A DNA stretch of 64,000 nucleotides from Ignavibacteriales bacterium. Its GTDB lineage: Bacteria > Bacteroidota > Ignavibacteria > Ignavibacteriales > Melioribacteraceae. The stretch spans positions 186,001 to 250,000 of the forward strand of contig JAPLFF010000007.1 of NCBI GenBank assembly GCA_026390775.1. The letters run 5' to 3'. A program made the position numbers and the translations under genes. The notes under the pieces are model-generated. The model ran no database searches. It saw nothing but the letters and a program-made list of their open reading frames with translations, and had not been told where the DNA came from. Of this stretch, positions 10,401 to 57,933 are shown piece by piece; positions within the stretch are counted from its first letter, which is position 1, and every line of letters begins with the position of its first letter.

Positions 10401-11406
10401 TCTTTTTTGAATAAGGTTGTTTCATCCGGACAATATTTTTTGCAGATGAACTATATTCCCAAAATTCCTGAGGTCTGCCGTAAAAGATTATATAATCGCT
10501 GGGATCAAATCTACCGTCTTCTTCACCAATAACTGTAATAGCATTTTCGATTAGCCCTTGATTATTTGATATACTTAAATCTTCAGGAAGCGTGTAACCG
10601 CCGTTGTTATAAATTTTTATTGTCTTTGGATTAAAATCAGTTGCATTAACATCAATTCCAATTGTTTGTAAAAAAGTTCTATCTATTTTATATATACCTT
10701 CGTCCGGAGCTTCGAATCGGAACCAATCACCTGCAGCTAAAACTGAAGCTGAAGTCTTGAGTATTTTTTTTTCTGAGATTCCCCAATTCTTAGCTATCTC
10801 CCAATTTAGGACGATGGATTGAAAAGTATTATCCTGTATTAATTCTCTATTAGAAGGAGAAGGTGCAAACGAAATTTTTAGAACAATTTTTTTGTAAATC
10901 TTAATAACATTTGATGATACATCAAAAATGACCGGATGAATTTTAATTGATTGCACGGGCAAGTTTCTAAATAATCCATATTCACCAAATGCAGCAATAT
11001 CCGGAGCAGAAAAATTTGAATACTTATCACTTACGATATAATTCTCAACATATGAAATTGAATCTTTTTGTAATTGGGGAACAGGCACATATTGTCCGTT
11101 CAATGTAGAATAATCTGCACTCAAAATTTGAATAGTATTCCCCAATTCTGACGGAACACCGACATTGATTTCCCTCACCGGAATTTGTGGAAGCCCTGAT
11201 TTAGTAATATTCTCAATAAATCCGCCAAGCAGATTTAATTTTTTAAATGAATTACCTGAAACTGAAATAGTTAGAGTGTCTTTATAGATAGGGCGATATT
11301 CAATTACAATAGAAGATCTATCGGAAGATAAAATTCTTAAATCCTGTGCATTGGCAATCAGATTTAAAATAAAAAAGAGAATAACTAAAAAGAATTTGTA
11401 TTTCAT
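7453..11406 (-). CDS. porU: Type IX secretion system sortase PorU (C25 gingipain family)
   Basis: The protein has 1317 aa with an N-terminal signal peptide (cleavage near NLIANAQ). The C25 cysteine-protease core is clear: a catalytic His in YVGHGNPGVW (His835) and a catalytic Cys in TAATCDFG (Cys869), 34 residues apart as in gingipains. PorU cleaves sorting domains from cargo at the cell surface and links the cargo to a surface lipopolysaccharide. The protein itself ends in a type A sorting domain (NYPNPFSSNTTFTF, ending GKLAVIR). It is first in a likely operon with porV and the M6-like cargo gene. A sigma70-like promoter lies about 100 bp upstream. Confidence 0.9.
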   Translation of the reverse strand: MKYKFFLVILFFILNLIANAQDLRILSSDRSSIVIEYRPIYKDTLTISVSGNSFKKLNLLGGFIENITKSGLPQIPVREINVGVPSELGNTIQILSADYSTLNGQYVPVPQLQKDSISYVENYIVSDKYSNFSAPDIAAFGEYGLFRNLPVQSIKIHPVIFDVSSNVIKIYKKIVLKISFAPSPSNRELIQDNTFQSIVLNWEIAKNWGISEKKILKTSASVLAAGDWFRFEAPDEGIYKIDRTFLQTIGIDVNATDFNPKTIKIYNNGGYTLPEDLSISNNQGLIENAITVIGEEDGRFDPSDYIIFYGRPQEFWEYSSSAKNIVRMKQPYSKKNYYWLTYGGVNGKRISNKQSTNFTNAYQQTSTLAFKSLDKDSVNIGRSGRDYFGDQLDLSTKSRTYLTTLNGIVPSSIIKYNFRVANASTTITPYSVEESGSRIYSSTVPGIYSYIYGIEDIGSGIYGGQLSLDERSNLKFSINTSSSSARLLLDYFEIAYQRQLTSFVDNLLLFSKDTTATIEYTFTNYSSIQFFDITDYANVKNISNAIISLGQIKFQAAETKGNVSKYFAVTSAAYKTPINGVKITNSNIRGNLRGSEMIVITAKDFKTQADRYAAYRSQQSPYILSTQIFYVDEILNEFSCGSLDPTAIRDFLKFAYENWQIKPSYVLLLGDGDYDYLNTEKLNKNFVPVYETAESLDEIQSYPTDDFYARISGNDKRIDIAIGRLNIQTAAEADVVIDKIIKYETGLEKGLWRNNITLVADDGPQAVGYDDGSLHTSQSENLANKRIPKYFDLDKIYLVAYPTVYTGLGRRKPEVNKAIINAINDGTLIINYVGHGNPGVWAHESVFERSASIPQLKNSNYFFLTAATCDFGKYDDPTEQSSTEILMNMSGGAIAAFSASRVVYSVANATINDSLYSRLFQTREAGNLPIRIGKAYLLAKQLLTEENDEKFHLFGDPAIRLDEPLNPTSVDSVNGKSLKSLVQVNALGSVKIKGAVRNTNGTLAQYNGDAIVSMYDSERSIYFKEMDYTVTMQGGLIYRGRTSVINGEFQTEFVVPKDISYENKNGKIVAYISNSTSDGVGYSTNVVVGGTNPDAVNDGKGPEISIYFDDINFQSSYLVNPDFMLIAKLSDRTGLNTTGTGIGHKLEAILNDDEVNPIDLTNSFVGDLNSGGKSGLIKYKFTGMTPGDYKIKVKAWDVFNNLSSQEANFSVVSSDNGIVLRDVVNYPNPFSSNTTFTFQHNVATAINVKIKIYTIAGRMIKQIEQSNILDKFVRIDWDGRDADENQIANGTYLYKLIVESNDGKYKDNVLGKLAVIR

Positions 11407-11511
11407 CGCTCTGTTGAATGATTTAGTAATGTTTTCAAAAATTTTCTTCAGTATAGGAATTCAAAGCGGTAAACAAACTCTATATAGTTTTTCTCCAAAT
11501 TTTCTGGGCAA

Positions 11512-11540
11512 AATTTAGGCAAGATATACCAAGATGTCAA
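11512..11540 (-). promoter_or_regulatory. Sigma70-like promoter upstream of porU
   Basis: On the minus strand TTGACA (11535-11540) and TAAATT (11512-11517) are separated by exactly 17 bp. Transcription would start near 11505, leaving a leader of about 100 nt before the porU ATG. No other gene lies between. Confidence 0.6.
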
Positions 11541-11639
11541 GTCAAAACAAAATTACATAAAATCAAATCACATTTAATATATGGAGTTTATTTCCTTTCA
11601 TTTACTATGGATCAAAGACTGAAACATAATCTGTTATCC

Positions 11640-12209
11640 TTATAAACCAAGTAAGGCCTTATTCATTTTCATAGCACTAACACAAAATCCTATATGATCT
11701 TCCAAAGAAATACTTAAAGCTTCGGCGCCTTTTGTAATATCTTCACGGTTAACAGCTCTGGCAAAAGCTTTATCTTTCATTTTCTTGATAACGGACTTCA
11801 CTTCAACTTCTTCAATTGATCTACTCGGTCTTACGTATGTTACAGCGGTAATTAATCCGGCTAATTCATCGCATGCAAAAAGAGTTTTTCTTAAAAGTGT
11901 ATCGCGTTGAATGTTTGTATAATCTGCATGAGACATTATTGCATTTCTGAATTCTTCATCAAATCCTTTTTCTTTTAATATTTCCGATCCTTTGTATGGA
12001 TGTTGTTCTGCTGTTGGAAACATTTCGTAATCAAAATCGTGTAGTAGAGCAACGCAGCTCCAATATTCAACATCTTCACCAAATTTTTCAGCATATGCTT
12101 TTACACAAGTTTCTACGGCATAAGCATGTTTTAACAAACTATCACTCTTAGTATATTCTTGAAGAATAGATAAACAACAATTTCTGTCTCTCATAATATT
12201 AGAACTCAT
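11640..12209 (-). CDS. HD-domain protein (HDIG-type phosphohydrolase fold)
   Basis: The protein is 189 aa. The segment CVALLHDFDYEMFP supplies the HD metal motif, preceded by VETCVKAYAEKFG and followed by HPYKGSEILKEKGFD and the HADYT histidine, as in HDIG hydrolases of unknown substrate. It is probably cytoplasmic, since no signal peptide is seen. The frame is open 14 codons further upstream and would overlap the nth stop. However, a GAAGGAG ribosome site lies 5-6 nt before ATG 12209, so I use that start, 11 bp after nth. The two genes are probably co-transcribed. The substrate cannot be read from the sequence. Confidence 0.8.
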   Translation of the reverse strand: MSSNIMRDRNCCLSILQEYTKSDSLLKHAYAVETCVKAYAEKFGEDVEYWSCVALLHDFDYEMFPTAEQHPYKGSEILKEKGFDEEFRNAIMSHADYTNIQRDTLLRKTLFACDELAGLITAVTYVRPSRSIEEVEVKSVIKKMKDKAFARAVNREDITKGAEALSISLEDHIGFCVSAMKMNKALLGL

Positions 12210-42654: not shown

Positions 42655-44460
42655 ATGAAGAGAATTTCATTTCTATTGATAATTCTATTTGTCGTTTCAA
42701 TTCAAGCACAAAATAAAATTCACAGACCTGAAATAACTGCAGAAGAAATTAAAGCCAACGTCTTCTATCTCGCATCAGATGCAATGAAAGGAAGATTCAC
42801 CGGAAGTCCTGAAGAAAGAATAGCAGGAGATTATATTAAAAGTGAATTTCAACTTTACGGATTAAAACCTGCTTTCAATGGAAATTGGTTCCAAGAATTT
42901 CCTTTTATTGAAAGAGTTGAAATGACAAAAGCTAATTCCCTTTCTTTTGACGTAAAGGGTAAAAAGCAAAACCTTAAAACCGGAAATGATTATACAACCG
43001 TTGCCTATTCCGGAAAAGGAAAAATTAATGGAGATTTAGTTTTTGCAGGATATGGTATTTCCGCACCTAAATTAAATTACGATGACTATGAAGGTATTGA
43101 TGTTAAAGGAAAAACCGTAGTTGTTATGAGGTATCATCCCGAACATGACAGTTCCAGATCAGAGTTTGATAAATATGCTTCCTTTAGAAACAAAGCTACA
43201 GTAGCAAAAGAGAAAGGTGCAGTTGCAATTATCTTAGTCAATGGATTCGCACCCAAAAACTATGATGATCAATTGATGGAACTCCACTACGATGGTGCAC
43301 CCGCAATGAAAGGTATTTCTGTTCAACATGTAAAAAGAAGTTTTGTAGAAGATCTTTTTAAGATTGATGGGCTGAGCTTCGTCGAAGCCCAGAAACAAAT
43401 TGATGCTTTAAAAAAACCATCTTCATTTGCATTTAAAAATGCCAAAGTTTCTCTTTCAACCGAAGTAAAAGAAATTGAGAAGAAAGGAAGAAATGTTGCG
43501 GGGATGATCGAAGGAAGTGATCCGGTTTTGAAAAATGAATTTATTGTAATCGGCGCACATTACGATCATCTTGGAATTGATCAGCTTAAAGAATCTTCGA
43601 TGTATAAAGGTAATGACAAACAAATTCACAATGGCGCTGATGATAATGCATCCGGTACAACAGGAGTGTTGGAAGTCGCTGAAAAATTTGGCTCTATGCA
43701 AGGACTATTGAAACGCAGTATAATCTTTGTTGCTTTCTCCGGTGAAGAACTTGGAATTCTTGGTTCAACTTACATGACGAATAATTTTCCTGTTGATATT
43801 AAAAATGTTGATGCAATGTTAAACATGGATATGATCGGACGTTTGAATGAAGAAAATAGTTTGACCATCATTGGTTCAGGTACTTCTTCAATGTGGAAGG
43901 AATTGTTAAATCAAAAAAACAGTTACAGTTTTAAATTAGGAATGAGCGATGGCGGATCGGGCGGCAGTGATCATCAAGCATTCTCAAATAAAAACATTCC
44001 GGTTCTTTTTTTCTTTACCGGAACACATTCGGATTATCACAAACCATCTGATAAACCTGAAAAAATAAATTGCGACGGCGAAGCTAAAGTTGCTAACTAT
44101 GTTTTTGATATTGCTCTTGCAGTTGATAATTTAGAAAAACGGCCGGATTATGTTAAAGTTGAAGAACCCGCACAAAGAGGCGGTGACGGAGGAAAAACTC
44201 GCGTTACAGTAGGAACAATTCCTGAATTTGGCTTTAGTGGAACAGGTTATAAACTATCCGGAGTAACTGAAGGAAGTCCTGCAGCTAAAGCCGGAATGAA
44301 AGCGGGTGATATCATTGTAAAATTTGGTCCTAAAACAGTTGCCAATATTTATGATTTTATGTATGCTGTTCAAGATTACAAAGCCGGTGATAAAGTTGAT
44401 GTTGTTGTCCAACGAGATGGAAAAGAAATGACTTTCAATGTCGAATTGATTGCGAAATAG
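42655..44460 (+). CDS. Secreted M28 aminopeptidase with PA and PDZ domains
   Basis: The protein has 601 aa with a signal peptide (VVSIQAQ). A PA-type insert (LVFAGYGISAPKLNYDDYEGIDVKGKTVVVM) precedes the di-zinc M28 core: GAHYDHLG, NGADDNASGT, FSGEELGILGS, MDMIGRL and HSDYHKPSDK. A C-terminal PDZ domain follows (GVTEGSPAAKAGMKAGDIIVKFG). It degrades peptides in the periplasm or at the surface. A GAGGA ribosome site precedes the ATG. A small palindromic element (43369-43390) is read in frame as part of a loop. Confidence 0.92.
   Translation: MKRISFLLIILFVVSIQAQNKIHRPEITAEEIKANVFYLASDAMKGRFTGSPEERIAGDYIKSEFQLYGLKPAFNGNWFQEFPFIERVEMTKANSLSFDVKGKKQNLKTGNDYTTVAYSGKGKINGDLVFAGYGISAPKLNYDDYEGIDVKGKTVVVMRYHPEHDSSRSEFDKYASFRNKATVAKEKGAVAIILVNGFAPKNYDDQLMELHYDGAPAMKGISVQHVKRSFVEDLFKIDGLSFVEAQKQIDALKKPSSFAFKNAKVSLSTEVKEIEKKGRNVAGMIEGSDPVLKNEFIVIGAHYDHLGIDQLKESSMYKGNDKQIHNGADDNASGTTGVLEVAEKFGSMQGLLKRSIIFVAFSGEELGILGSTYMTNNFPVDIKNVDAMLNMDMIGRLNEENSLTIIGSGTSSMWKELLNQKNSYSFKLGMSDGGSGGSDHQAFSNKNIPVLFFFTGTHSDYHKPSDKPEKINCDGEAKVANYVFDIALAVDNLEKRPDYVKVEEPAQRGGDGGKTRVTVGTIPEFGFSGTGYKLSGVTEGSPAAKAGMKAGDIIVKFGPKTVANIYDFMYAVQDYKAGDKVDVVVQRDGKEMTFNVELIAK
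43369..43390. repeat. Palindromic element inside the M28 peptidase gene
   Basis: The 22-bp element starts GGGCTGAG and ends GAAGCCC, with the palindromic core GCTTCG-T-CGAAGC. It is close to a dispersed palindrome with core CTTCGACAAGCTCAG that I recall from many bacterial genomes. Here it is translated in frame as part of GLSFVEAQ. Confidence 0.55.
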
Positions 44461-47404: not shown

Positions 47405-48727
47405 TTATTTTTGTATTTCTGCTAAAGGAACTGCGGTTCCTCTCATCGAGTGAACTTTGTTAGGAACGGGAATGGAAATATTTTTATTCACATATTTTTC
47501 AAATTCATCACGGAAACGTGTGATCATAAACTTTACAGGCCATGCCGCTGCTTCTCCAAGAGCGCAAATCGTATTACCTTCAATATTATTCGCAACACTT
47601 ATAAGTAAATCCAAATCTGCAGATGTTCCATGTCCTTCGTCTATTCTATGCAGAATCTTTTCCATCCAACCGGTACCTTCCCGACAAGGAGTGCATTGCC
47701 CACAACTTTCATGATGATAAAAATGAGCGATCCGGATTAGAACTTTTAGAAGATTGGTATCTTCATCCATCACCATTACTCCGCCGGTGCCGATTGCAGA
47801 ACCCGCTTCCTTAAGTGATTCTGCATCCATGCGTACACCTTCTAGTTGGTCACCACGCAATGGCGGCATTGATGAACCACCCGGAATTACACATTTAATT
47901 TTTTTGTTATTGGAAACTCCTCCCGCTACATTGTAAATTAAATCAGTTAGAAGAGCACCTGATGGTAATTCATAAACACCGGGTTTGTTAACATGTCCGC
48001 TTATACCAAATAAAATTGTACCGGGATGTTTTGGTGCACCGATTTTCGAGAACCATTCCCAACCGTTTTTAATTATTGCAGGAACGTTTGTAATTGTTTC
48101 GACATTATTGATAGTGGTTGGACAACCCCACAAACCACGCTGCGCAGGAAACGGCGGTTTAACGCGCGGATAACCTCTCAGTCCTTCAATGGAATTCATC
48201 AAGGAAGATTCTTCACCGCAGATGTAAGCACCGGCACCTTTATGAATGAAAAGATCACAACTAAAATTTATTCCAAATGTTTCCTTCATCTTCTCACCGA
48301 GAAATCCGCGAGAGTAAGCTTCATCAACAGCTTTCTGCATAAGCTTAATCCATTTATGATATTCACCGCGGATGTATAGATATGCAACCTTAGCACCGAT
48401 TGCATAACTTGTTATGATTGCACCTTCAATAAGTTGAAACGGATTGTCTTCAAAAATTTGTCTGTCCTTAAAAGAACCGGGTTCGCTTTCGTCGCCGTTG
48501 ACGCAAAGATACTTCGGCTTATCTGTAGTCTTCGGCATGAAACTCCACTTCAATCCGGCAGAAAATGCAGCACCGCCTCTACCCCGCAATCCGGATTTTT
48601 TTACTTCATCAATAATTACATCGGGAGTTTTTGCAAATGCTTTTTTTGCAGATTCAAATCCACCGTTAGCAAGATAGACTTCTATCTGATTGAAATTTTC
48701 TATTTGTGGTAAAACTATTTTTTCCAT
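47405..48727 (-). CDS. nuoF: NADH-quinone oxidoreductase subunit F
   Basis: The protein is 440 aa. It has GLRGRGGAAFSAGLKW (NADH site), NGDESEPGSFKDR and GAGAYICGEESSLMNSIEG (FMN site), and the N3 4Fe-4S ligands in ESCGQCTPCREGT plus NTICALG. It is the NADH-oxidising subunit of complex I. Its ATG shares a base with the nuoE stop (TAATG). The operon ends here at a terminator, so nuoG-N must lie elsewhere. Confidence 0.97.
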   Translation of the reverse strand: MEKIVLPQIENFNQIEVYLANGGFESAKKAFAKTPDVIIDEVKKSGLRGRGGAAFSAGLKWSFMPKTTDKPKYLCVNGDESEPGSFKDRQIFEDNPFQLIEGAIITSYAIGAKVAYLYIRGEYHKWIKLMQKAVDEAYSRGFLGEKMKETFGINFSCDLFIHKGAGAYICGEESSLMNSIEGLRGYPRVKPPFPAQRGLWGCPTTINNVETITNVPAIIKNGWEWFSKIGAPKHPGTILFGISGHVNKPGVYELPSGALLTDLIYNVAGGVSNNKKIKCVIPGGSSMPPLRGDQLEGVRMDAESLKEAGSAIGTGGVMVMDEDTNLLKVLIRIAHFYHHESCGQCTPCREGTGWMEKILHRIDEGHGTSADLDLLISVANNIEGNTICALGEAAAWPVKFMITRFRDEFEKYVNKNISIPVPNKVHSMRGTAVPLAEIQK

Positions 48728-49200
48728 TATTTGAGCGAATCCAAAATTTCAAAAACTTTTTCTTTATTTAGATTTTCAAAATAATCTTCGTTAACAGCGA
48801 TCATAGGCGCATAACCGCAAGCGCCCATACATTCAACTTCCTCGAGAGAATATTTTCCATCCGGAGAAACTTTCATGTGATCAAGTTCCAATTTATCTTT
48901 AACACCATCCCAAATTTCATAAGCGCCACGTAGCATACATGAAACATTGGTACAAACTTGGATGTGATATTTACCCATCGGTTTGGTGTGATACATTGTA
49001 TAAAATGTAACAACACTTAGAACATTTACTTTATCAATACCAAGAACATTTGCAATCTCTTCCATTACTTCATTGCTGATGAATCCATTCTGTTCTTGAG
49101 CGATATGAACAGTATCCATAACGGCAGCAAGTGAGGTAGGATATTTTTTCCTTGCCGCTTCTATTCGTCTAATACTTTCTTCAGTAAACTTAAATGGCAT
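48727..49200 (-). CDS. nuoE: NADH-quinone oxidoreductase subunit E
   Basis: The protein is 157 aa with a thioredoxin-like fold. The N1a 2Fe-2S ligands are CTNVSC and, further on, VECMGACG. The upstream helix region (AALMDTVHIAQEQNGFIS type) and VLSVVTFYTMYHTKPMGKYHI are typical of NuoE. It is separated from nuoD by 49 bp that contain a short-word repeat. Confidence 0.95.
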   Translation of the reverse strand: MPFKFTEESIRRIEAARKKYPTSLAAVMDTVHIAQEQNGFISNEVMEEIANVLGIDKVNVLSVVTFYTMYHTKPMGKYHIQVCTNVSCMLRGAYEIWDGVKDKLELDHMKVSPDGKYSLEEVECMGACGYAPMIAVNEDYFENLNKEKVFEILDSLK

Positions 49201-49249
49201 ATTACTCTAAACCTTTGTTCTTACTCTTTCTCTTAATCTTACTCTTAAT
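49201..49249. repeat. 6-bp word repeat between nuoD and nuoE
   Basis: Read on the coding strand, the stretch after the nuoD stop is a run of hexamers such as TAAGAG, TAAGAT, TAAGAG and AAAGAG, then TAAGAA. No fold-back is seen here. Confidence 0.6.
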
Positions 49250-50500
49250 TTATTTATCTGCTTCGCCCATTACAGGATCAAGACTTCCAATAATTGCGAT
49301 AACATCGGAAACCATGGCTCCTTTGCACAATTGTGATAATGCTTGAAGATTGCAAAATGAAGGAGAGTGAATTTTCAATTTCCAAGGTTGTCCGCTTCCA
49401 TTACTTACAATATAAAATCCCAACTCGCCTTTTGGGTTCTCTACAGAAAAATATGTATCGCCAACCGGAGGATTAATTCCAAAATTGATAATCATAAAAT
49501 CATGAATTAGCTCTTCCATCTTGGAATAGATTTCTGTTTTATGTGGAAGAACTTTCTTCGGATTGTTTGCAATTACTTCGCCTTGTGGAATTTTATCCAA
49601 ACATTGTCGTAATATTTTTATGCTTTCTTTTACTTCATCACCCCTTTGGAAATATCTTGCAAGGCAATCACCTTGAGAGAAAGTTGGAATTTTAAAATCT
49701 ATTTCGTTGTAAAATAAATAAGGTTTCGCTCGACGAACATCATATTCGACTCCACTTGCACGTAAGTTTGGACCAGTAACACCAAGTGCAATTGCATCTT
49801 CCTTGGGAAGAATTCCAATTCCTTCAAGACGGTCAATAAAAATTCTATTAGAGAGCAACAGCTTATCCATTTCAACCAATGCTGGTTCCAGCTCAGATAA
49901 AAACTTTATAATTTCTGCAATTGACTGATCATCAATATCTGAAGCAACGCCACCGATGCGTGTATAACTTGTAGTAAATCTTGCACCGGCAATTCTATCG
50001 AAAATACTATTAACCTTTTCACGTTCACGGAATGTCCACATTACCATAGTTACAGCTCCAACATCCATTGCAAATGTTCCAATTGCTACCATGTGTGCCG
50101 CAATTCTTGAAAGTTCAGAAACTATCATTCGAATATATTGTGCGCGTTTTGGTGCTTCGATTCCAGCAAGTTTTTCTACTGCAAGAACGTATCCAACATT
50201 ATTACACATAGTTCCAGTATAATCAAGACGGTCTGTATGAGGAATAAATTCGATGTAGCTCATGTTCTCAGCCATCTTTTCATAACCGCGATGCAGATAA
50301 CCAAGTTCCGGTACAATTCCAACAACCGTTTCACCATCAAGACGCAACACAAGTCGAAGTACACCGTGAGTTGCCGGATGTTGTGGACCCATGTTGATTA
50401 CCATTTCGTTTTCAAGAACATCTTCAATAGTAAGGTTTTGATCTTCTTGAAGTTTCTTCAGAAGTTTTTCGTCATTATATATTTGTTTAATTCTATCCAT
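49250..50500 (-). CDS. nuoD: NADH-quinone oxidoreductase subunit D
   Basis: The protein is 416 aa. It has MGPQHPATHGVLRLVLRLDGE, PELGYLHRGYEKMAE, TDRLDYTGTMCNNVGY, RIGGVASD and a C-terminal DPVMGEADK, so it is a full-length 49-kDa-type subunit forming the quinone site with NuoB. It begins 1 bp after nuoC. Confidence 0.97.
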   Translation of the reverse strand: MDRIKQIYNDEKLLKKLQEDQNLTIEDVLENEMVINMGPQHPATHGVLRLVLRLDGETVVGIVPELGYLHRGYEKMAENMSYIEFIPHTDRLDYTGTMCNNVGYVLAVEKLAGIEAPKRAQYIRMIVSELSRIAAHMVAIGTFAMDVGAVTMVMWTFREREKVNSIFDRIAGARFTTSYTRIGGVASDIDDQSIAEIIKFLSELEPALVEMDKLLLSNRIFIDRLEGIGILPKEDAIALGVTGPNLRASGVEYDVRRAKPYLFYNEIDFKIPTFSQGDCLARYFQRGDEVKESIKILRQCLDKIPQGEVIANNPKKVLPHKTEIYSKMEELIHDFMIINFGINPPVGDTYFSVENPKGELGFYIVSNGSGQPWKLKIHSPSFCNLQALSQLCKGAMVSDVIAIIGSLDPVMGEADK

Positions 50501-50501
50501 T

Positions 50502-50996
50502 CTATTCTGCTTTAAAAGGAAGTGGCAATGAACCGGGAATACCCAGAACAGGAAAATCTTTTCTCAACGGGTGGTATTCAAATCCTTCGGGCATATACAT
50601 TCTTCTAAAATCGGGATGGTTGATAAATTTAATTCCGTACATATCCCACGTCTCGCGTTCATACCAATTAGCACTTTGCCAAACAGATGAGACAGTTTCT
50701 ATTGTTGGAGGATCATCATCAATATTCGATTTAAGTCTTAACGAGTAATTTAATTTGAAAGAATAGATGTGGTAAACTGTTGTAAATCTTTTTTTGCGGG
50801 TTGCCCAATCAATTGCAGTTACATCTTTACACATAATGAATTGAAGATCGGGATCTTCTTTCAAAAACTTTCCAAGATTAACAATCTGATCCTTCTTAAT
50901 TGTAATACAGAGATCGTCTCTAAAATCTGAAACTTCTTCTACGGATTCGCCAAATTTTTCTTTTACTTTTTCAACAATTAGTTCTTTGGTATTCAT
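50502..50996 (-). CDS. nuoC: NADH-quinone oxidoreductase subunit C
   Basis: The protein is 164 aa of the 30-kDa-type subunit. VYHIYSFKLNYSLRLK, ANWYERETWDMYGIKFINHPDFRRMYMPEGFEYHPLRKDFP is the family signature. It is separate from NuoD (not fused as in enterics) and lies 3 bp after nuoB. Confidence 0.96.
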   Translation of the reverse strand: MNTKELIVEKVKEKFGESVEEVSDFRDDLCITIKKDQIVNLGKFLKEDPDLQFIMCKDVTAIDWATRKKRFTTVYHIYSFKLNYSLRLKSNIDDDPPTIETVSSVWQSANWYERETWDMYGIKFINHPDFRRMYMPEGFEYHPLRKDFPVLGIPGSLPLPFKAE

Positions 50997-50999
50997 CGG

Positions 51000-51518
51000 T
51001 CAGTTTTGAGAGTGTTCAAGTTCAGCAAGTGATCTGTTTTGAAAATCGCGTGCTTTGGTTTTTCCAATTTTATCTTGAATTGTCATTAATGCATTTAATA
51101 AATTTTCCGGACGAGGCGGACAGCCGGCAGTGTAAACATCAACCGGAAGAAATTGATCTATCCCTTGCACAACGCTATATGAACGGTACATTCCGCCGGA
51201 AGAAGTACAAGCGCCCATTGCAATAACCCATTTTGGTTCCGGCATTTGATCATAAATTCTTCTAACAACTTGAGCCATTTTATATGTTACGGTTCCGGCT
51301 ACAATCATAAGATCGGATTGACGCGGGCTAAAACGCATTACTTCGGAACCAAATCTTGCTATATCATATTTAGGATCTGCAGTAGCTATCATTTCAATTG
51401 CACAGCAGGAAATTCCCATCGGCATTGGCCATACCGAACTTTTGCGAGACCACGCAACTATTGCATCTATTGTAGTTGTTAAAAATCCATCCTTTTGAAG
51501 TACCGCTTCTAATCCCAT
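51000..51518 (-). CDS. nuoB: NADH-quinone oxidoreductase subunit B
   Basis: The protein is 172 aa. Ligands of cluster N2 are seen in [24 protein letters not shown] and [23 protein letters not shown] and DQFLPVDVY are also typical. It passes electrons to quinone with NuoD. It overlaps nuoA by 10 bp. Confidence 0.97.
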
Positions 51519-51877
51519 TTCAATCCGCCTTTCATATAGACATAAAGAAATCCCAATTCAAGTACAATTAAGAAGATAAGCATTGGCATAAAAGCAAAAA
51601 TTCCAAGATCGGCAAATAATTTTTTGAATTGTACCGCCCATGGATAAACATAAATTACTTCGATATCAAAAATGATGAACATCATTGTAACAAGATAATA
51701 CTTAATCGAAATCCTTTCGTGTGTTGAACCAACAGGATCTTTACCGCTTTCATAAGTCATTGTTTTAATTTTATTGGGACGCTGTGGGCCAAAAAGAGTT
51801 GAGGAAAAAACAACTATTCCTCCAAAAGCAGCAGCTACAATTATTACTAGAATAATAGGTATGTAATCAAATATCAT
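51509..51877 (-). CDS. nuoA: NADH-quinone oxidoreductase subunit A
   Basis: The protein is 122 aa with three membrane helices. The conserved loop [25 protein letters not shown] is followed by [20 protein letters not shown]. It is the first gene of nuoABCDEF, with a candidate promoter about 27 bp upstream. Confidence 0.96.
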
Positions 51878-52009: not shown

Positions 52010-53164
52010 TTAAGTAAGAATTTCAATTAATTTTTCTACCACAGTATCTAGGTCTTCATAACTAATTACCAATGGCGGTAGCATACGTAATACAGTTGTT
52101 CCGGCAGGTAAAGAAAGTATTTTATGATTAAGTAATTCAAGTATTACCGGCTGAGATTTATCTTTTAATTCTATGCCGATCATCAATCCGATGATTCTAA
52201 TCTCACGGACTTTTGAGAGCGGATGTTTTTCCAATTTCTCTTTGAAATATTTTCCTTTTGCTTCGGCTTGTTCCCACAATTTATTTTCAAGCATAAAATC
52301 TATTGCAGCTATTCCCGCGGCGCATGCAAGCGGGTTGCCGCCAAAGGTTGAGCCGTGTTTACTTTTTTCAACTGTTATTTTATCAGAACAAAGTAATGCA
52401 CCCATCGGAAATCCGCCGGCGATTGATTTTGCAAGCGTCATCATATCTGCTTCGATTTCTAGATACTCAATCGCAAACATTTTTCCGGTTCTGCAGAATC
52501 CAGTTTGTATCTCATCAATAATCAGAAGAATATTTTTTTCATCGCAAAGCTGTCTAACTTTTTGGAAATATTCTTTCTGCCCAATATTAATTCCGCCTTC
52601 GCCCTGGATCGGTTCTAGAATGATCCCTGCGGTATCATCATCAACGGCTTCTGCAAGCTTTTCAAAATTGTTGAAAGGAACGAAAGAGAAACCCGGCACA
52701 AGCGGTTTAAATCCTTCGCGGTACTCTTTTTTATAAGTTGCGCTTAACGCACCCATTGTTCTGCCGTGAAAGCCTTTCATTGCTGCAATGAATTTTGTTT
52801 TCTTTGTGTTCAAACGTGCAAACTTTATTGCCGCTTCAATTGCTTCGGTTCCGCTGTTCGTTAGGAATGTCTTAGTTAAATTCTTAGGTACTATACTGAA
52901 AAGTTTTTCCAAAAAGATTGCTTTAGTATCATTGTAAAAAGTATTTGGGCAAGTAATAAGAGTTGCAGCCTGTTTAGAAATTGCTTCAACAACTTTATCA
53001 TTAGCATGTCCGACATTTGCTACACTTATTCCCGCCGCCATGTCGATATATTCATTGCCTTGATCGTCCCACACTCGCGCTCCTTTACCTTTTACCAATA
53101 CAATATCGCGGCGCGGATAAACATCAATTTCGTATTGCTGGGTGATTGCTTTGTAATCTTTCAT
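52010..53164 (-). CDS. lysJ: LysW-aminoadipate semialdehyde/acetylornithine aminotransferase
   Basis: The protein has 384 aa and is a class III PLP aminotransferase: GKGARVWDDQGNEYIDMAAGISV, TFLTNSGTEAIEAAIKFAR, GFHGRTMGALSAT, LIIDEIQTGFCRTG and LAKSIAGGFPMGALL with the PLP Lys. ArgD and LysJ cannot be told apart by motif. The LysW operon context favours LysJ, making LysW-lysine, perhaps with ArgD activity as well. It overlaps lysZ by 4 bp. Confidence 0.88.
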   Translation of the reverse strand: MKDYKAITQQYEIDVYPRRDIVLVKGKGARVWDDQGNEYIDMAAGISVANVGHANDKVVEAISKQAATLITCPNTFYNDTKAIFLEKLFSIVPKNLTKTFLTNSGTEAIEAAIKFARLNTKKTKFIAAMKGFHGRTMGALSATYKKEYREGFKPLVPGFSFVPFNNFEKLAEAVDDDTAGIILEPIQGEGGINIGQKEYFQKVRQLCDEKNILLIIDEIQTGFCRTGKMFAIEYLEIEADMMTLAKSIAGGFPMGALLCSDKITVEKSKHGSTFGGNPLACAAGIAAIDFMLENKLWEQAEAKGKYFKEKLEKHPLSKVREIRIIGLMIGIELKDKSQPVILELLNHKILSLPAGTTVLRMLPPLVISYEDLDTVVEKLIEILT

Positions 53165-53952
53165 TGTATTGTTGTTCCCTTTCCATTTAGTGCATCTTTA
53201 ATTGGATTTTCTGTTCTGCCGTCTGAAAGAATAACAGTTGTATCTCCCGACTCGAATAATTTTCTTAGAGCAAGAATTTTTCTTTTCATTCTTCCTTCCA
53301 CCTTTTGTTCCATTACTTCAAGTTCAGCTTTTGAAATATTAGAGACAAGTGATGAAGGATCGTTTTTGTCTAATAAAAATCCCGGAGCTTCAATTAGAGA
53401 AATTATTTTTTCAGCCTTGAATTCTTTTTGAAGCAAAGCTATAATGTCATCGTTCTCGGAATTTATCGCGAAATTATTTTCATCAATCAACGGAACACTA
53501 AGAACAGGAGTGTAACCATTATATAACAACAAATCTAAGAGTTGCTTATTTATCGCCTTCGGTTTACCGGAAAAATCTCTTAACAATAATGTCTTCCCGC
53601 CTTCACGGACCTTGATACCACTATTTCGTTTACCCTGTATAACTTTGCCATCTAAACCGGAAAGACCAACTGCATTAACTCCATTCTTCTGAAATAATTC
53701 TACTATTCTTTTATTCCTTAAACCGGCATATGCCATCATAGCAAGATCAATTGTATTCTCGTCACTAAAGACAGAATCATAACCGGAAAGCGAAGTAATA
53801 ACTTTTTTTTCAATACCAAGTTTTTTTGCAAGATCATCACGCAAAGCATTGGCACCATGAACAATAATAAATTTTTCGTTAAGTGCCGCTAAATCTTTTA
53901 CAATCCCAACAAGATTTAAATCCTTCCCTCCGCCAATCTTAATTAAAAGCAT
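53161..53952 (-). CDS. lysZ: LysW-aminoadipate kinase (acetylglutamate kinase family)
   Basis: The protein has 263 aa of the amino-acid kinase fold: LLIKIGGGKDLN at the N-terminus, FIIVHGANALRDDLAKKLG, GLSGLDGKVIQGKRN and a C-terminal VEGRMKRKILALRKLFESG. It phosphorylates the side-chain carboxylate of LysW-bound aminoadipate. It overlaps the amidotransferase gene by 10 bp upstream and lysJ by 4 bp downstream. Choice of LysZ over ArgB rests on the neighbouring lysW and lysX. Confidence 0.87.
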   Translation of the reverse strand: MLLIKIGGGKDLNLVGIVKDLAALNEKFIIVHGANALRDDLAKKLGIEKKVITSLSGYDSVFSDENTIDLAMMAYAGLRNKRIVELFQKNGVNAVGLSGLDGKVIQGKRNSGIKVREGGKTLLLRDFSGKPKAINKQLLDLLLYNGYTPVLSVPLIDENNFAINSENDDIIALLQKEFKAEKIISLIEAPGFLLDKNDPSSLVSNISKAELEVMEQKVEGRMKRKILALRKLFESGDTTVILSDGRTENPIKDALNGKGTTIQ

Positions 53953-54587
53953 GGAATCTCCGTTAATGAATTATTCTGAATAGGTATCCAATCATTTTCA
54001 TTCGATAATTTTTCTGAACAGACAATTAACATGTTATCGTTTTTTATAAGCTTCATCGTAAAATAGTCTTCATCTTCATTGAAATGAGAATAGACATACG
54101 CTGATTTATCGTTAGTCATAATAATATTCATCGCACGGATATAACTGGATTTCTTTTTAATTATCTCAGTCCCTTTGCTTAAAGCGTCCTTGATATTACC
54201 TTTATCAAATCTTTTTATATAATTAAAGATTTTATCTGCGCCGATCTTCCCTTCTTCTTTAATTTTTACACCTTTTAGTTCACCGTTGAAAATAAATATA
54301 TACTTGTCATCATAGAACGGCATATTATTTTCGACAGCTATTCCTTCATCTTTGAATGCACTTCTGGCATGTGCAATCAAGCGATTTGAATCACCGAATT
54401 GTGAAAGATCATCTTCCCAAATAGGATTTACATTTTTATAATAATTCCATTTCCCGTTTTGAAAATACGCACATCCCCAGCCGTGTCCTTGAAATTCTTT
54501 ACTGTTCTTGGAAATCTCTGAAAACTTATTGAGATACTCTGAACATGAAAATTTATTTTTTGAATTAACGTAAAGTAATCTGCACAT
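53943..54587 (-). CDS. Class II glutamine amidotransferase (YafJ/EgtC-like) in the LysW operon
   Basis: The protein has 214 aa. The Ntn-hydrolase nucleophile is Cys2 (MCRLLYV), exposed on Met removal. HGWGCAYF (residues 35-42), RLIAHARSAF and FIFNGELKG are the glutamine-site motifs of class II amidotransferases of the YafJ/EgtC group. No synthase domain is attached. It overlaps lysZ by 10 bp and follows lysY in the operon. EgtC-type relatives cleave gamma-glutamyl amides, the same bond type that joins lysine to LysW. I infer a possible role in releasing product from LysW; a plain ammonia-donor role is the alternative. Confidence 0.82.
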   Translation of the reverse strand: MCRLLYVNSKNKFSCSEYLNKFSEISKNSKEFQGHGWGCAYFQNGKWNYYKNVNPIWEDDLSQFGDSNRLIAHARSAFKDEGIAVENNMPFYDDKYIFIFNGELKGVKIKEEGKIGADKIFNYIKRFDKGNIKDALSKGTEIIKKKSSYIRAMNIIMTNDKSAYVYSHFNEDEDYFTMKLIKNDNMLIVCSEKLSNENDWIPIQNNSLTEIPCF

Positions 54588-54664: not shown

Positions 54665-55708
54665 TTAAATTGGATGAAGTCCCGGAAATTCTAATCCGGT
54701 TCGCTCATCAAAACCATTCATTATATTAAATGCTTGAAGCGCTTGACCTGCGGCGCCTTTCATTAAATTGTCAATCGCACTTATAACAACAAGGCGATTT
54801 GAAAACTCATCTTTCTTAAATCCAATATCGCAGTAATTTGTACCGATCAATAATTTCGGTTCGGGATAACGGTAAATGCCTTCACTCTCTTTAACTATTC
54901 TTATGAACGGTTCATTACCGTATGCATCGCGGTAAACTTTCCAAATATCTTTTTCTTGAAGATCATCTTTCAAGAAAACATGACAAGTAGCGAGCAACCC
55001 GCGAACCATATCTATCGCTGTTGCAGAGAAGTGAATTGTAAGTTTTTGTCCAAACGATAGTTCTTGAAGCATCTCAGCAGTATGTCTGTGTTGAGTGGGT
55101 TGATAGGAACGCACAACATTGGCTCTCTCCGGATGATGTGATCCTTCGTTTCCTTTATTACCGCCTTCACTTGATCCAACTTTAACTTCAATAACCGTTC
55201 TATCTAATTCAACTAAATTATTTTTATAGAGTGGATACAAACCAAGTATGGTGGCTGTTGCATTGCACCCCGCACTCGAAATGTAATTTGCTTTCTTCAT
55301 TTCTTCGCGGTGAAGTTCTGGAATACCGTAAACAAATTCATTCAATAAATCCGGACGTGCATGTTTATGTCCGTACCATTTTTCATATTCATTAACATCT
55401 TTCAGTCGGAAGTCAGCACTAAGATCAATAATCTTTGGTGCCAATTTTTTAAATTCATCAATTTTATTCTGGGATCTGTTATGGGGTAGACATAAAAATA
55501 AAAGATCGCACGGCTGAAGTTCGTTTGCAGAACTGAATTTTAGCATTGTTGATTTACGTAAGTTCGGATGAATCTTATAAACAAATTTTCCTGTATAGCT
55601 TTCAGATGTAACTTGATTTACCTCAACCTTAGGATGAAATAGTAAAAGTCTAAGTAATTCTCCTCCTGTATAACCTGAAGCGCCAATGATCGAAACTTTT
55701 AATTTCAT
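54665..55708 (-). CDS. lysY: LysW-aminoadipyl phosphate reductase (ArgC family)
   Basis: The protein has 347 aa. The NADP fold is at the N-terminus ([18 protein letters not shown]), the catalytic Cys lies in [17 protein letters not shown], and [28 protein letters not shown] is typical of ArgC/LysY. It reduces the acyl phosphate made by LysZ to the semialdehyde. It overlaps lysX by 4 bp. ArgC activity cannot be excluded. Confidence 0.88.
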
Positions 55709-56553
55709 TTTCTACCTTCAGCAACTTGCAAAATATATTCTACCATTTTCTGCGGAATATTTACTCCTGTTGTTGTGATACTGTTTTTATATTCCATAGT
55801 ATAGTTCACTTCGTTTACCATTAATCCTTGTGCAGTTTCAAAAACATCTATTGCAACAATTCCACCGCCGACAGCTTTTGCCGCGCGTACCGAGATATGA
55901 TTTAATTCATCTGTAACCGGACAATTAGTTGCAACACCGCCGCGCGCAGTATTTGTTATCCAGTGAGAAGATGTTCTGTAAATCGCAGCTATACATTTAT
56001 CACCAACAACAAAACTGCGAATATCTTTTCCTTTTTTCTCAACATACTTTTGCATATAAAAAATCGAATGATGATATGAACCAAGGACAGCTTTATGTTC
56101 CAAGATTGCTTCAGCAGCATCGCGGTCATTTACTTTTGAAAGCAATCTTCCCCAAGAACCCACAGCAGGTTTTAATACAACCGGGTAACCCATCTCTTCA
56201 ATTGTTTTTAGTGCCGATTCTTCTGTGAATGCTACACGAACTTCAGGTTGAGGAACTTTGTAATCTGCCAAAGCACAAGATGTTAGTAATTTATCGCCGC
56301 AAATGGTTGCTACACTATATGTGTTCACACATTTAATTCCGGCTGTTTCAAATAACTTCAAACCATGCAATGCTCTTGAGTGATTAATACACCGTTCAAC
56401 AACAATATCAAGATCAAATTTATCTTTACCGATATTAAATTTAATTTCACGGTCATCTATCATTACCAATTCAATTCCCTTTATCTTATTGAATTCATCA
56501 ATAAGAAATTTTTCATCTTTTCTAATCAACGAATGAAGCAACCCGATTTTCAT
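55705..56553 (-). CDS. lysX: Aminoadipate-LysW ligase
   Basis: The protein has 282 aa of the RimK/LysX ATP-grasp family: [70 protein letters not shown] and [19 protein letters not shown]. The last segment resembles LysX of Thermus. It ligates the alpha-amino group of aminoadipate to the C-terminal Glu of LysW. AGGAG lies 7 nt before the ATG. Confidence 0.92.
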
Positions 56554-56606: not shown

Positions 56607-57773
56607 TCAGCTATTAAATGACTTGTGATGTTTAACTGCATCAACTATATGTTTAAGTTCGGCAAGATCAACTGTACGACCGCGCTGACCAACAGATTTT
56701 ACTTCTTTAAGAACATCCATTTGATGAGGTTCATCTAATGAGTCTTCATCAATCAAGTTTAATGCATATCTCAATGATGCTATACCGGACATATGGTCAA
56801 GTGCAAAGTTTCTTGGTCTCCCAAGAATTTCGGGATTCAAACTTTCATAATGCATTGGATTGATCGAAGCCGCATGTGTATGTACACCTGCACAATGCGT
56901 GAAAGCATTCTTTCCGGTGATCGGAAAATTTGCCGGAATTGGAATCCCGGAATGTTTACTAACTAAATCGTAAAGTTCAACAAGTTTTAAAAGATTCCAT
57001 CTAGTTTCATTATAATCTACAGTTAACACAACTAAAAGCGAAGCGAGATCAACTATACCAGCTCGTTCACCCAAACCTAAAGCTGCGGCATCAATTATAC
57101 TTGCACCGGCTCGATATGCATCTAGTGCATTAGCAAGTGCTAAACCGCGATCGTTATGGCAATGTACAGCAATTCTTGGATGTAAATTTAATTTGTCTAA
57201 TTCTTGAATCAATCGTGATATATAATCATACATACTTCTAGATGTTCCCGGAACCATATAACCTGTTGTATCTGCAACACTAATAATATCTGCACCAGCT
57301 TCAACTGCAGCAGATGCGGCTTTAACTACATTTTCAAATTGAGAACGAACCGTGTCTTCCGGTGTGTAACGAATTAATAAATCCGGTTTCTGTGATTTTG
57401 CATATTTAATTACATCTGTAATCTGTTTGATTGCAGCATCTAAATCTTTTTTGAAAACTGTTGTTAATCTTTCATCTGAGACACAATAAAAAATTCCGAG
57501 GAATCCGACACCGCATTCAAGAGCAAGATCAACATCGCTTTGAAGTGAACGAGCGTGAGCTCCAACTATTGCTTTGTATCCTTTTTGTGCAATTGATTTT
57601 ACAGCAGCATGAATTTCGGGTGTAACCATCGGGTGGCCGGATTCGATAATGTCTATACCGATTTCATCAAGCAGACTTGCTATTGCAAGTTTTATATGTT
57701 TATCGAAATAAACACCCGGAGTTTGTTCGCCTTCGCGTAAAGTTGAATCTAATACCCAGATCAATTTACTCAC
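56607..57773 (-). CDS. lysS: Homocitrate synthase
   Basis: The protein has 388 aa of the HMGL-like TIM barrel: VLDSTLREGEQTPG, RYTPEDTVRS, SVADTTGYMVPGT, AVHCHNDRGLALANALDAYRAG, and ITGKNAFTHCAGVHTHAASINPMHYE. It condenses 2-oxoglutarate and acetyl-CoA as the first step of the aminoadipate route. 2-isopropylmalate synthases share the fold. Placement directly behind lysW and the short C-terminus argue for homocitrate synthase. The start is GTG, overlapping lysW by 8 bp. Confidence 0.87.
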   Translation of the reverse strand: MSKLIWVLDSTLREGEQTPGVYFDKHIKLAIASLLDEIGIDIIESGHPMVTPEIHAAVKSIAQKGYKAIVGAHARSLQSDVDLALECGVGFLGIFYCVSDERLTTVFKKDLDAAIKQITDVIKYAKSQKPDLLIRYTPEDTVRSQFENVVKAASAAVEAGADIISVADTTGYMVPGTSRSMYDYISRLIQELDKLNLHPRIAVHCHNDRGLALANALDAYRAGASIIDAAALGLGERAGIVDLASLLVVLTVDYNETRWNLLKLVELYDLVSKHSGIPIPANFPITGKNAFTHCAGVHTHAASINPMHYESLNPEILGRPRNFALDHMSGIASLRYALNLIDEDSLDEPHQMDVLKEVKSVGQRGRTVDLAELKHIVDAVKHHKSFNS

Positions 57774-57933
57774 CCCAGTCTTCTTCTTCTTGAGGTGCTT
57801 CTTTTACTTGCGGTGGATTAACAGAAACTACTTCCAATTCAGTTCCGCAATCGGGGCACCCAATTAATTCACCTTGAACTGCATCAGAAGCGAGTTCGAT
57901 CTGCGCACCGCATACCGGGCATTCTGTTTTCAT
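57766..57933 (-). CDS. lysW: Amino-group carrier protein LysW
   Basis: This 55-aa acidic protein is easy to miss because of its length. It has two zinc-ribbon pairs, ECPVCG and GCPDCG, and ends in EEDWGE, the invariant LysW C-terminus whose final Glu carries the substrate. AAGGA lies 6 nt before the ATG. It is first in the lysine operon and overlaps lysS by 8 bp. It carries aminoadipate through activation, reduction and transamination. Confidence 0.95.
   Translation of the reverse strand: MKTECPVCGAQIELASDAVQGELIGCPDCGTELEVVSVNPPQVKEAPQEEEDWGE

Follow-up and report, generated by a model that had tools for sequence, protein, structure and literature searches.

An EgtC-like Ntn amidohydrolase of LysW operons is a candidate for the enzyme that releases lysine from the C terminus of LysW in place of LysK

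We analyzed a stretch of 64,000 nucleotides (positions 186,001 to 250,000 of contig JAPLFF010000007.1, assembly GCA_026390775.1; referred to here as the window) from the genome of an Ignavibacteriales bacterium (3.01 Mb, 99.94% complete), which carries a lysine operon built around the amino-group carrier protein LysW. The genes lysW, lysX, lysY, lysZ, and lysJ all stand together in the window, and the gene between lysY and lysZ encodes an EgtC-like N-terminal nucleophile (Ntn) amidohydrolase of 214 amino acids, for which we use the working name GAT. On the minus strand, the order of transcription is lysW, homocitrate synthase, lysX, lysY, GAT, lysZ, and lysJ, as follows.

57766-57933, minus strand: lysW, amino-group carrier protein of 55 amino acids with the C terminus EEEDWGE (TIGR01206, 78.8 bits; cut-off, 53.2).
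56607-57773, minus strand: homocitrate synthase-like protein of the HMGL family (best NCBIfam scores under the curated cut-offs).
55705-56553, minus strand: lysX, LysW-aminoadipate ligase (TIGR02144, 349.9 bits; cut-off, 275.6).
54665-55708, minus strand: lysY (ArgC family), LysW-aminoadipyl phosphate reductase, with the function assigned by context.
53943-54587, minus strand: GAT, candidate LysW C-terminal γ-glutamyl amidase (LysW-lysine hydrolase and LysW-Gln deamidase), an EgtC-like Ntn amidohydrolase with a class II amidotransferase fold.
53161-53952, minus strand: lysZ, [LysW]-aminoadipate kinase (NF010659, 249.2 bits; cut-off, 223).
52010-53164, minus strand: lysJ (argD/lysJ family), LysW-aminoadipate semialdehyde transaminase, with the function assigned by context.

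The GAT open reading frame begins with ATG (N terminus, MCRLLY), starts at a distance of 77 nucleotides from lysY, and overlaps lysZ by 10 nucleotides, while its product matches the Pfam family GATase_4 (36.8 bits versus a gathering score of 23). This confirms an earlier note on this DNA, which had placed an Ntn-type amidotransferase gene between lysY and lysZ, overlapping the latter. That note also called the operon otherwise complete, which holds for the LysW-dependent genes and the homocitrate synthase but not for homoaconitase and homoisocitrate dehydrogenase, neither of which was seen in this operon (the rest of the genome was not searched for either). Close relatives of GAT are found in Melioribacter and Stygiobacter records of the Ignavibacteriales.

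A Pfam scan of GAT gave no match to M20 metallopeptidases, and its score with the EgtC model TIGR03442 (50.2 bits) is far under the equivalog cut-off of 218.65. AlphaFold2 predicts an Ntn-hydrolase fold (pLDDT of 92.4, pTM of 0.91), for which the best structural match is EgtC (PDB 4zfj, 4zfk, and 4zfl; Z of 26.1, root mean square deviation of 1.8, 201 of 214 residues aligned, 17% identity). GlmS follows with a Z of 21.8, and the same fold is seen in the stand-alone class II amidotransferases 1te5 and 3mdn (Z of 18.7 and 19.9), which we take to be YafJ-like and for which we know of no tie to LysW; a Foldseek search was consistent with these comparisons. Like EgtC, GAT appears to be a stand-alone Ntn amidohydrolase with an N-terminal Cys, but the two differ in their surroundings, given that EgtC is encoded with egtA, egtB, and egtD, whereas GAT has its home in the LysW operon, with lysY and lysZ as neighbors. 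According to the available part of PMC9103826, EgtC is encoded in a five-gene cluster and acts in ergothioneine synthesis as an amidohydrolase, taking off a glutamyl residue.

The nucleophilic Cys2, directly after the initiator Met, is kept in all 91 GAT sequences, and so are Arg75, the Arg for the α-carboxylate, and the oxyanion residues Asn101-Gly102. In contrast, the position of Asp123 in mature GlmS (position checked), which binds the free α-amino group of glutamine, is Gly116 in 91/91 GAT proteins but Asp in GlmS and 12/12 proteins that we label EgtC/YafJ-like (181 to 207.5 bits, hence under the EgtC cut-off). This swap was read from a MAFFT sequence alignment, the structure comparison having no residue-level alignment, and hhalign gives the same register with 98% probability for the EgtC-like set and 1% for GlmS alone, so the support for the register comes from the EgtC-like proteins together with the MAFFT alignment. 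HMMER searches against PDB sequences returned only short EgtC and 3mdn alignments that do not reach far enough to bear on the Asp. The exchange of an Asp that binds the α-amino group for Gly would fit the C-terminal Glu of a protein as substrate, which has a free α-carboxylate but no free α-amino group. According to part of PMC7953260, simulations of GPATase place the glutamine analogue in contact with Gly102 and with Arg73, the residue that holds the α-carboxylate. The overall charge is not decisive, with a median isoelectric point of 7.7 for GAT versus 4.1 for LysW and 5.5 for the LysK of Deinococcus.

The class II amidotransferase fold and the catalytic residues, which GlmS and PurF use for glutamine, would also suit an ordinary glutaminase that feeds ammonia to the operon or senses glutamine for it. 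We regard this as highly improbable, given that the Asp for the α-amino group of glutamine is replaced by Gly throughout, that no synthase domain is fused to GAT, and that such a role would leave the Glu/Gln switching of LysW described below unexplained. To our knowledge, moreover, neither the transaminase LysJ nor the ATP-grasp ligase LysX needs ammonia.

The product of the operon in the window is most consistent with lysine. LysX carries the motif GSWGR and the sequence ITNTARGG, in which Asn-Thr precedes Ala-Arg; following the meaning given to these motifs in the accessible part of PMC10433800, and with our own placement of the signature in the sequence, this LysX would be of the lysine type. 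ArgJ is present in the genome (483 bits; cut-off, 298), so that arginine need not come from LysW, and on these grounds, together with the G042 cluster described below, we rejected arginine as the product. LysA, on the other hand, gave no match in the genome at an E value of ≤0.001, which leaves the diaminopimelate route to lysine without its last step. Taken together, the lack of LysA, the presence of ArgJ, and the lysine-type LysX imply that something must release lysine from LysW, and GAT is the sole hydrolase in the operon. In one related genome (G042), a second argC-argJ-argB-argD-like cluster, with argJ judged by length and order only, stands beside the LysW operon.

The known enzyme for this step, LysK, was searched with the model TIGR01902 (cut-off, 163.1 bits). 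No protein of the genome passed the cut-off, the best match reaching 89.6 bits, and this protein was rejected as LysK because it scores as a YgeY-type hydrolase (455 bits versus a cut-off of 321) and is encoded beside a carbamoyltransferase. The genome contains 13 M20-like matches, of which 11 were scanned (the long frames L007 and L010 were left unscanned), yielding five true M20 peptidases and six of family M28. Besides the YgeY-type protein, the true M20 peptidases comprise PepT, one dipeptidase, and two β-Ala-His dipeptidases, all of which were likewise rejected. Within the window, the only M20-like match (42655-44460, plus strand) turned out to be an M28 peptidase, so that the claim of the earlier note that lysK is lacking there stands and extends to the genome at the model's cut-off.

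We then compared the gene neighborhoods of GAT across genomes. Among the 96 nearest genomes, 36, including that of the window, contain GAT, and in 36/36 loci it lies between lysY and lysZ. LysW scores over its cut-off in 32 of the 96, all of them with GAT, and the four GAT genomes without a LysW match are in 240 to 460 contigs. In addition, LysA over cut-off was found in 14/36 genomes with GAT versus 50/60 without it (Fisher P = 1.4e-5, kinship ignored). A scan of GTDB with one genome per species yielded 247 GAT relatives, from which we kept the best 80, many of their loci being cut by contig ends. In all of these 80 best loci, GAT stands beside genes of the LysW pathway, namely, lysZ (78 loci), lysY (74, not counting an argC-like gene that was listed for L141 but lies farther along), lysJ (72), lysX (70), lysW (56), and homocitrate synthase (39). 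The two loci without lysZ end at a contig edge, and in L095, a lysX piece directly precedes GAT. These loci come from Ignavibacteria, Calditrichota, KSB1, Delta- and Gammaproteobacteria, SAR324, a metagenome-assembled genome of Acidobacteria, a Woesearchaeon, and Archaeon GW2011_AR15. The samples (the 96 genomes, the GTDB loci, and 43 genomes reached via GAT loci) overlap, with at least 4 of the 43 also being among the 96.

The link was also seen from the side of LysW. LysW scored over cut-off in 20 genomes of a 395-genome draw from the phylum of the window's own genome. In the phylum of AR15 (DPANN), LysW was over cut-off in 5 of 236 genomes, and 5/5 have GAT near lysX, lysY, lysZ, and lysJ within a single region, although in L144 GAT is separated from lysY by intervening genes. 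The operon of AR15, on a 1.16-Mb chromosome (CP010425.1), comprises lysW, homocitrate synthase, two homoaconitase genes, homoisocitrate dehydrogenase, lysX, lysY, GAT, lysZ, and lysJ, where the names homoaconitase and homoisocitrate dehydrogenase are our reading of the sequences. This shows that the link between GAT and LysW operons, which the earlier note had proposed to follow across genomes, is conserved in bacteria and archaea and is far beyond chance.

Two weak LysW-like matches without GAT were observed among the 96 genomes. In G028 (L053, 7039-8593), the match belongs to an operon remnant with lysJ and a LysW ending in EDWDE, where lysX, lysY, GAT, and lysZ were not found. In G043 (L054, 7738-7908), the LysW-like protein ends in EDWDD, and its unrelated neighbors are TerC, a BadF/BadG ATPase, a major facilitator superfamily transporter, and a fusion of glycoside hydrolase family 3 with a β-lactamase.

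No operon that we read carries both GAT and LysK. The cut-off of TIGR01902 was passed in 0/96 nearest genomes and in 0/43 genomes reached via GAT loci, while it was passed in 4/14 control genomes, with the LysK on a Deinococcus plasmid reaching 329 bits; five of the 43 GAT genomes, AR15 included, have no match to the model even at an E value of ≤0.001. Acidobacteriota (the phylum of G124) contain both operon types, with LysW over cut-off in 32/347 genomes. Reading these operons within ∼10 kb of lysW, we found LysK after lysJ in 23 regions, GAT in 5, and both in none, while 4 were undecided, three because they lie at contig ends and one (L201) with neither gene in the 1.7 kb beyond lysY. After three plasmid controls and two genomes in which LysW scored lower had been added, we counted among loci L062 to L219 27 LysK loci (including two from Streptomyces plasmids, where the enzyme is an M20 hydrolase), 66 GAT loci, and none with both. 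Counted as neither type were L213, L214, and L216 to L219, which have a weak LysW-like protein and no lysX nearby, as well as the cut or undecided L180, L201, L202, and L208; in L208, LysW ends in Gln and the contig ends before the place of GAT. In a tree built by a quick method from the LysX, LysY, and LysZ sequences of 93 rows (with L180 and L201 kept ungrouped), the GAT systems make up one side of a single branch (SH-aLRT of 100). LysK, known from Thermus, Deinococcus, and archaea, and GAT thus replace one another in the operon and share the same pathway step and predicted reaction, but they are unrelated in family and mechanism, LysK being a metal-dependent M20 enzyme and GAT a Cys-dependent Ntn hydrolase.

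The operon linkage would also be accounted for by an editing enzyme that uses the same chemistry at the same location to clear misloaded or incompletely loaded LysW (e.g., LysW-glutamate or LysW-aminoadipate) and so assists the pathway by recycling the carrier. However, LysK-type operons manage without GAT in 27/27 cases, and GAT operons would then be left without any release enzyme, so that we consider an editing role quite unlikely.

Some Acidobacteriota loci depart from the usual arrangement. In L211 (3871-4623, minus strand; G435), which counts as a GAT genome, a diverged GAT of 251 amino acids with ∼29% identity and no NCBIfam match follows lysJ, the usual place of lysK. L213, L214, and L216 encode orphan LysW-like proteins that end in DDWEE, DEWEE, and EDWTE and in whose vicinity no lysX was seen; they possibly represent other carrier systems.

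A further line of evidence comes from the last residue of LysW. According to the portion of PMC10433800 available, the substrate is carried on the γ-carboxyl of the C-terminal Glu, and replacing this Glu with Ala in a haloarchaeal LysW homologue makes the cell arginine requiring. In 64 GAT genomes, however, LysW ends in EDWGE in only 44 and in EDWGQ in the other 20, meaning that this key residue is not fixed and that Gln occurs where an amidase that could mend it stands by. (L145 and L212, second copies of the L101 and L127 genomes, were dropped from the 64 and from the tree; L238 to L240 are in no tally, two of them being GAT type with Glu, while L239 is Gln ended and its region ends before GAT.) LysK-type loci, by comparison, have Glu-ended LysW alone (27/27; Fisher P = 3e-4 for 20/64 versus 0/27, kinship ignored), as do five further plasmid LysW proteins with M20 hydrolases, bringing the M20-type total to 0/32 with Gln. 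Both Gln codons are used for the terminal residue and all three stop codons follow it, which argues that the Gln is not a sequencing artifact of one kind.

A carefully built tree for the GAT genomes requires at least 15 switches between Glu and Gln, 11 of them forced by well-supported branches, which is close to the mean of 17.2 for shuffled labels, 63 to 67 of 500 shuffles being as low as the observed 15. At the rate of the GAT clade, 8.1 switches would be expected on the LysK side, while none was observed (P = 3e-4, assuming one rate), so that the interchange is confined to the GAT clade. This pattern is as would be expected from the sequences if an enzyme tied to the operon hydrolyzes γ-amides at the last residue of LysW: a terminal Gln must be deamidated before substrate loading, and this deamidation is the same reaction as release.

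Taken together, we consider it probable that GAT is a LysW C-terminal γ-glutamyl amidase that releases lysine, replaces LysK, and matures LysW-Gln. The release of lysine from LysW, as the earlier note had suggested, appears well supported at the sequence level by the operon linkage, the exclusion of LysK, the Gln-ended LysW proteins, and the lost Asp. We infer both catalytic activities as well as a direct contact with LysW. In this mechanism, GAT would act as an amidohydrolase on the γ-carboxyl of the C-terminal residue of LysW. Cys2, made N terminal by removal of Met, would attack the amide that joins the γ-carboxyl of the terminal Glu to the α-amino group of lysine, which would free lysine, and hydrolysis of the thioester would regenerate LysW-Glu. 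An unrelated enzyme would thereby do the job of LysK as the last step of lysine synthesis. In lineages in which LysW is encoded with Gln, GAT would strip ammonia from this terminal residue so that LysX can load the carrier, and GAT thus probably also converts Gln-ended carriers to the active form.

Several observations weigh against this reading. In 4 of the 80 GTDB loci (L100, L125, L129, and L141), GAT heads a lysZ-lysJ unit, and the 1.5 to 8 kb upstream contain neither lysW nor lysX nor lysY; the operon is split there. Within one clade, the linkage of GAT is partly inheritance, and because the GAT operons form one clade, the swap between GAT and LysK did not occur many times independently but is a single event that was inherited and widely spread. 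On the LysK side, the sampling is narrow, with 24/27 loci from Acidobacteriota. The GAT genomes with LysA (14/36) include four of the window's own genus (G003, G005, G010, and G011), so that lysine need not come from LysW everywhere. Finally, 38 of the 43 GAT genomes contain relatives of LysK below the cut-off, not individually named, one of which could release lysine.

These relatives would allow that GAT only matures LysW-Gln, with an M20 peptidase encoded elsewhere releasing lysine. The Gln evidence by itself would fit such a pure maturation enzyme, and Gln-ended LysW occurs with GAT alone wherever the operon is readable to its end. Nevertheless, the 44 genomes that keep GAT with a Glu-ended LysW, for which no deamidation is needed, together with the lack of LysK, speak for a role in release. 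LysK and GAT never share an operon, five GAT genomes including AR15 lack even a TIGR01902 relative at an E value of ≤0.001, and release and deamidation both act on one atom by the same chemistry. We therefore hold a role in maturation alone to be unlikely and favor GAT as the enzyme for both release and maturation.

The proposed dual role of GAT resembles that of Dop in the Pup system of Actinobacteria. Dop is kin to PafA and glutamine synthetase, whereas GAT belongs to GATase_4 with an EgtC-like fold, so the likeness is one of logic and not of kinship. As far as covered by the accessible part of PMC8223512, Dop not only deamidates Pup-Gln but also detaches Pup from target proteins, one enzyme thus serving for Gln deamidation and amide cleavage as proposed for GAT, and in both systems a small tag or carrier is linked via the γ-carboxyl of a last residue that is Glu or Gln depending on the species. 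The systems differ in that Pup is disordered and modifies proteins, whereas LysW is a zinc ribbon and carries a metabolite. With more reserve than for the amidase itself, we lean toward a Pup-like scheme across the GAT clade (Ignavibacteria, Calditrichota, KSB1, Acidobacteriota, Delta- and Gammaproteobacteria, SAR324, and DPANN archaea), in which a Gln-ended pro-carrier is activated and unloaded by one Ntn amidohydrolase and Glu and Gln are freely switchable. The Dop/Pup scheme would then have been invented twice independently, in this case for a metabolite, and GAT would add a second family to the hydrolases that act on LysW products.

If this is correct, GAT would be the likely enzyme for the last step of lysine synthesis in many bacteria and some archaea with LysK-less LysW operons, the annotation of these genes as glutamine amidotransferases would need correcting, and Pup/Dop would have a clear parallel in a metabolite carrier. 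The carrier pathway itself is known, and the new variants are GAT as the release enzyme and a Pup-like Gln-ended carrier. As an example of the LysK-less operons, the genome paper of Caldithrix abyssi assigns LysWXZYJ and Hcs to a single locus, the other genes being dispersed (PMC5317091, in the part consulted). Among the titles and abstract openings that we searched, none connects the GAT family with LysW or describes a LysW that ends in Gln, a weak negative given that subscription journals, which published much of the work on LysW, lie mostly outside this search.

DPANN archaea (L101, L130, and L142 to L145) also have lysine operons that belong to the GAT clade and are complete or nearly so. 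As these operons are placed among bacterial ones on the tree, a transfer across domains is likely. In two of these archaea, L142 (G156, 4193-5859) and L144 (G242, 10081-11965), the GAT operon contains two adjacent lysX-like genes, of which only one has the Asn-Thr signature by our pattern, and the carrier in these archaea may serve both lysine and ornithine. Furthermore, 41 of the 80 GAT loci, some of them cut by contig ends, show no homocitrate synthase (e.g., L090, L092, L102, L104, L106, and L112), with Delta- and Gammaproteobacteria and Calditrichota among them; such operons may rely on another source of aminoadipate or make another product.

A location of GAT on mobile DNA was rejected, as searches of viral contigs (close relatives only) and plasmids gave no match; phages were not searched. 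A LysW-family gene was noted on a 54-kb plasmid of Staphylococcus epidermidis (NZ_CP043848.1, 33374-33535). In the window, nuo-like NADH dehydrogenase genes (47405-51877; names by reading) lie directly downstream of the lys operon on the same strand. Recurrent gene clusters follow lysJ in ∼20 of the 80 GTDB loci, suggesting that their order is kept.

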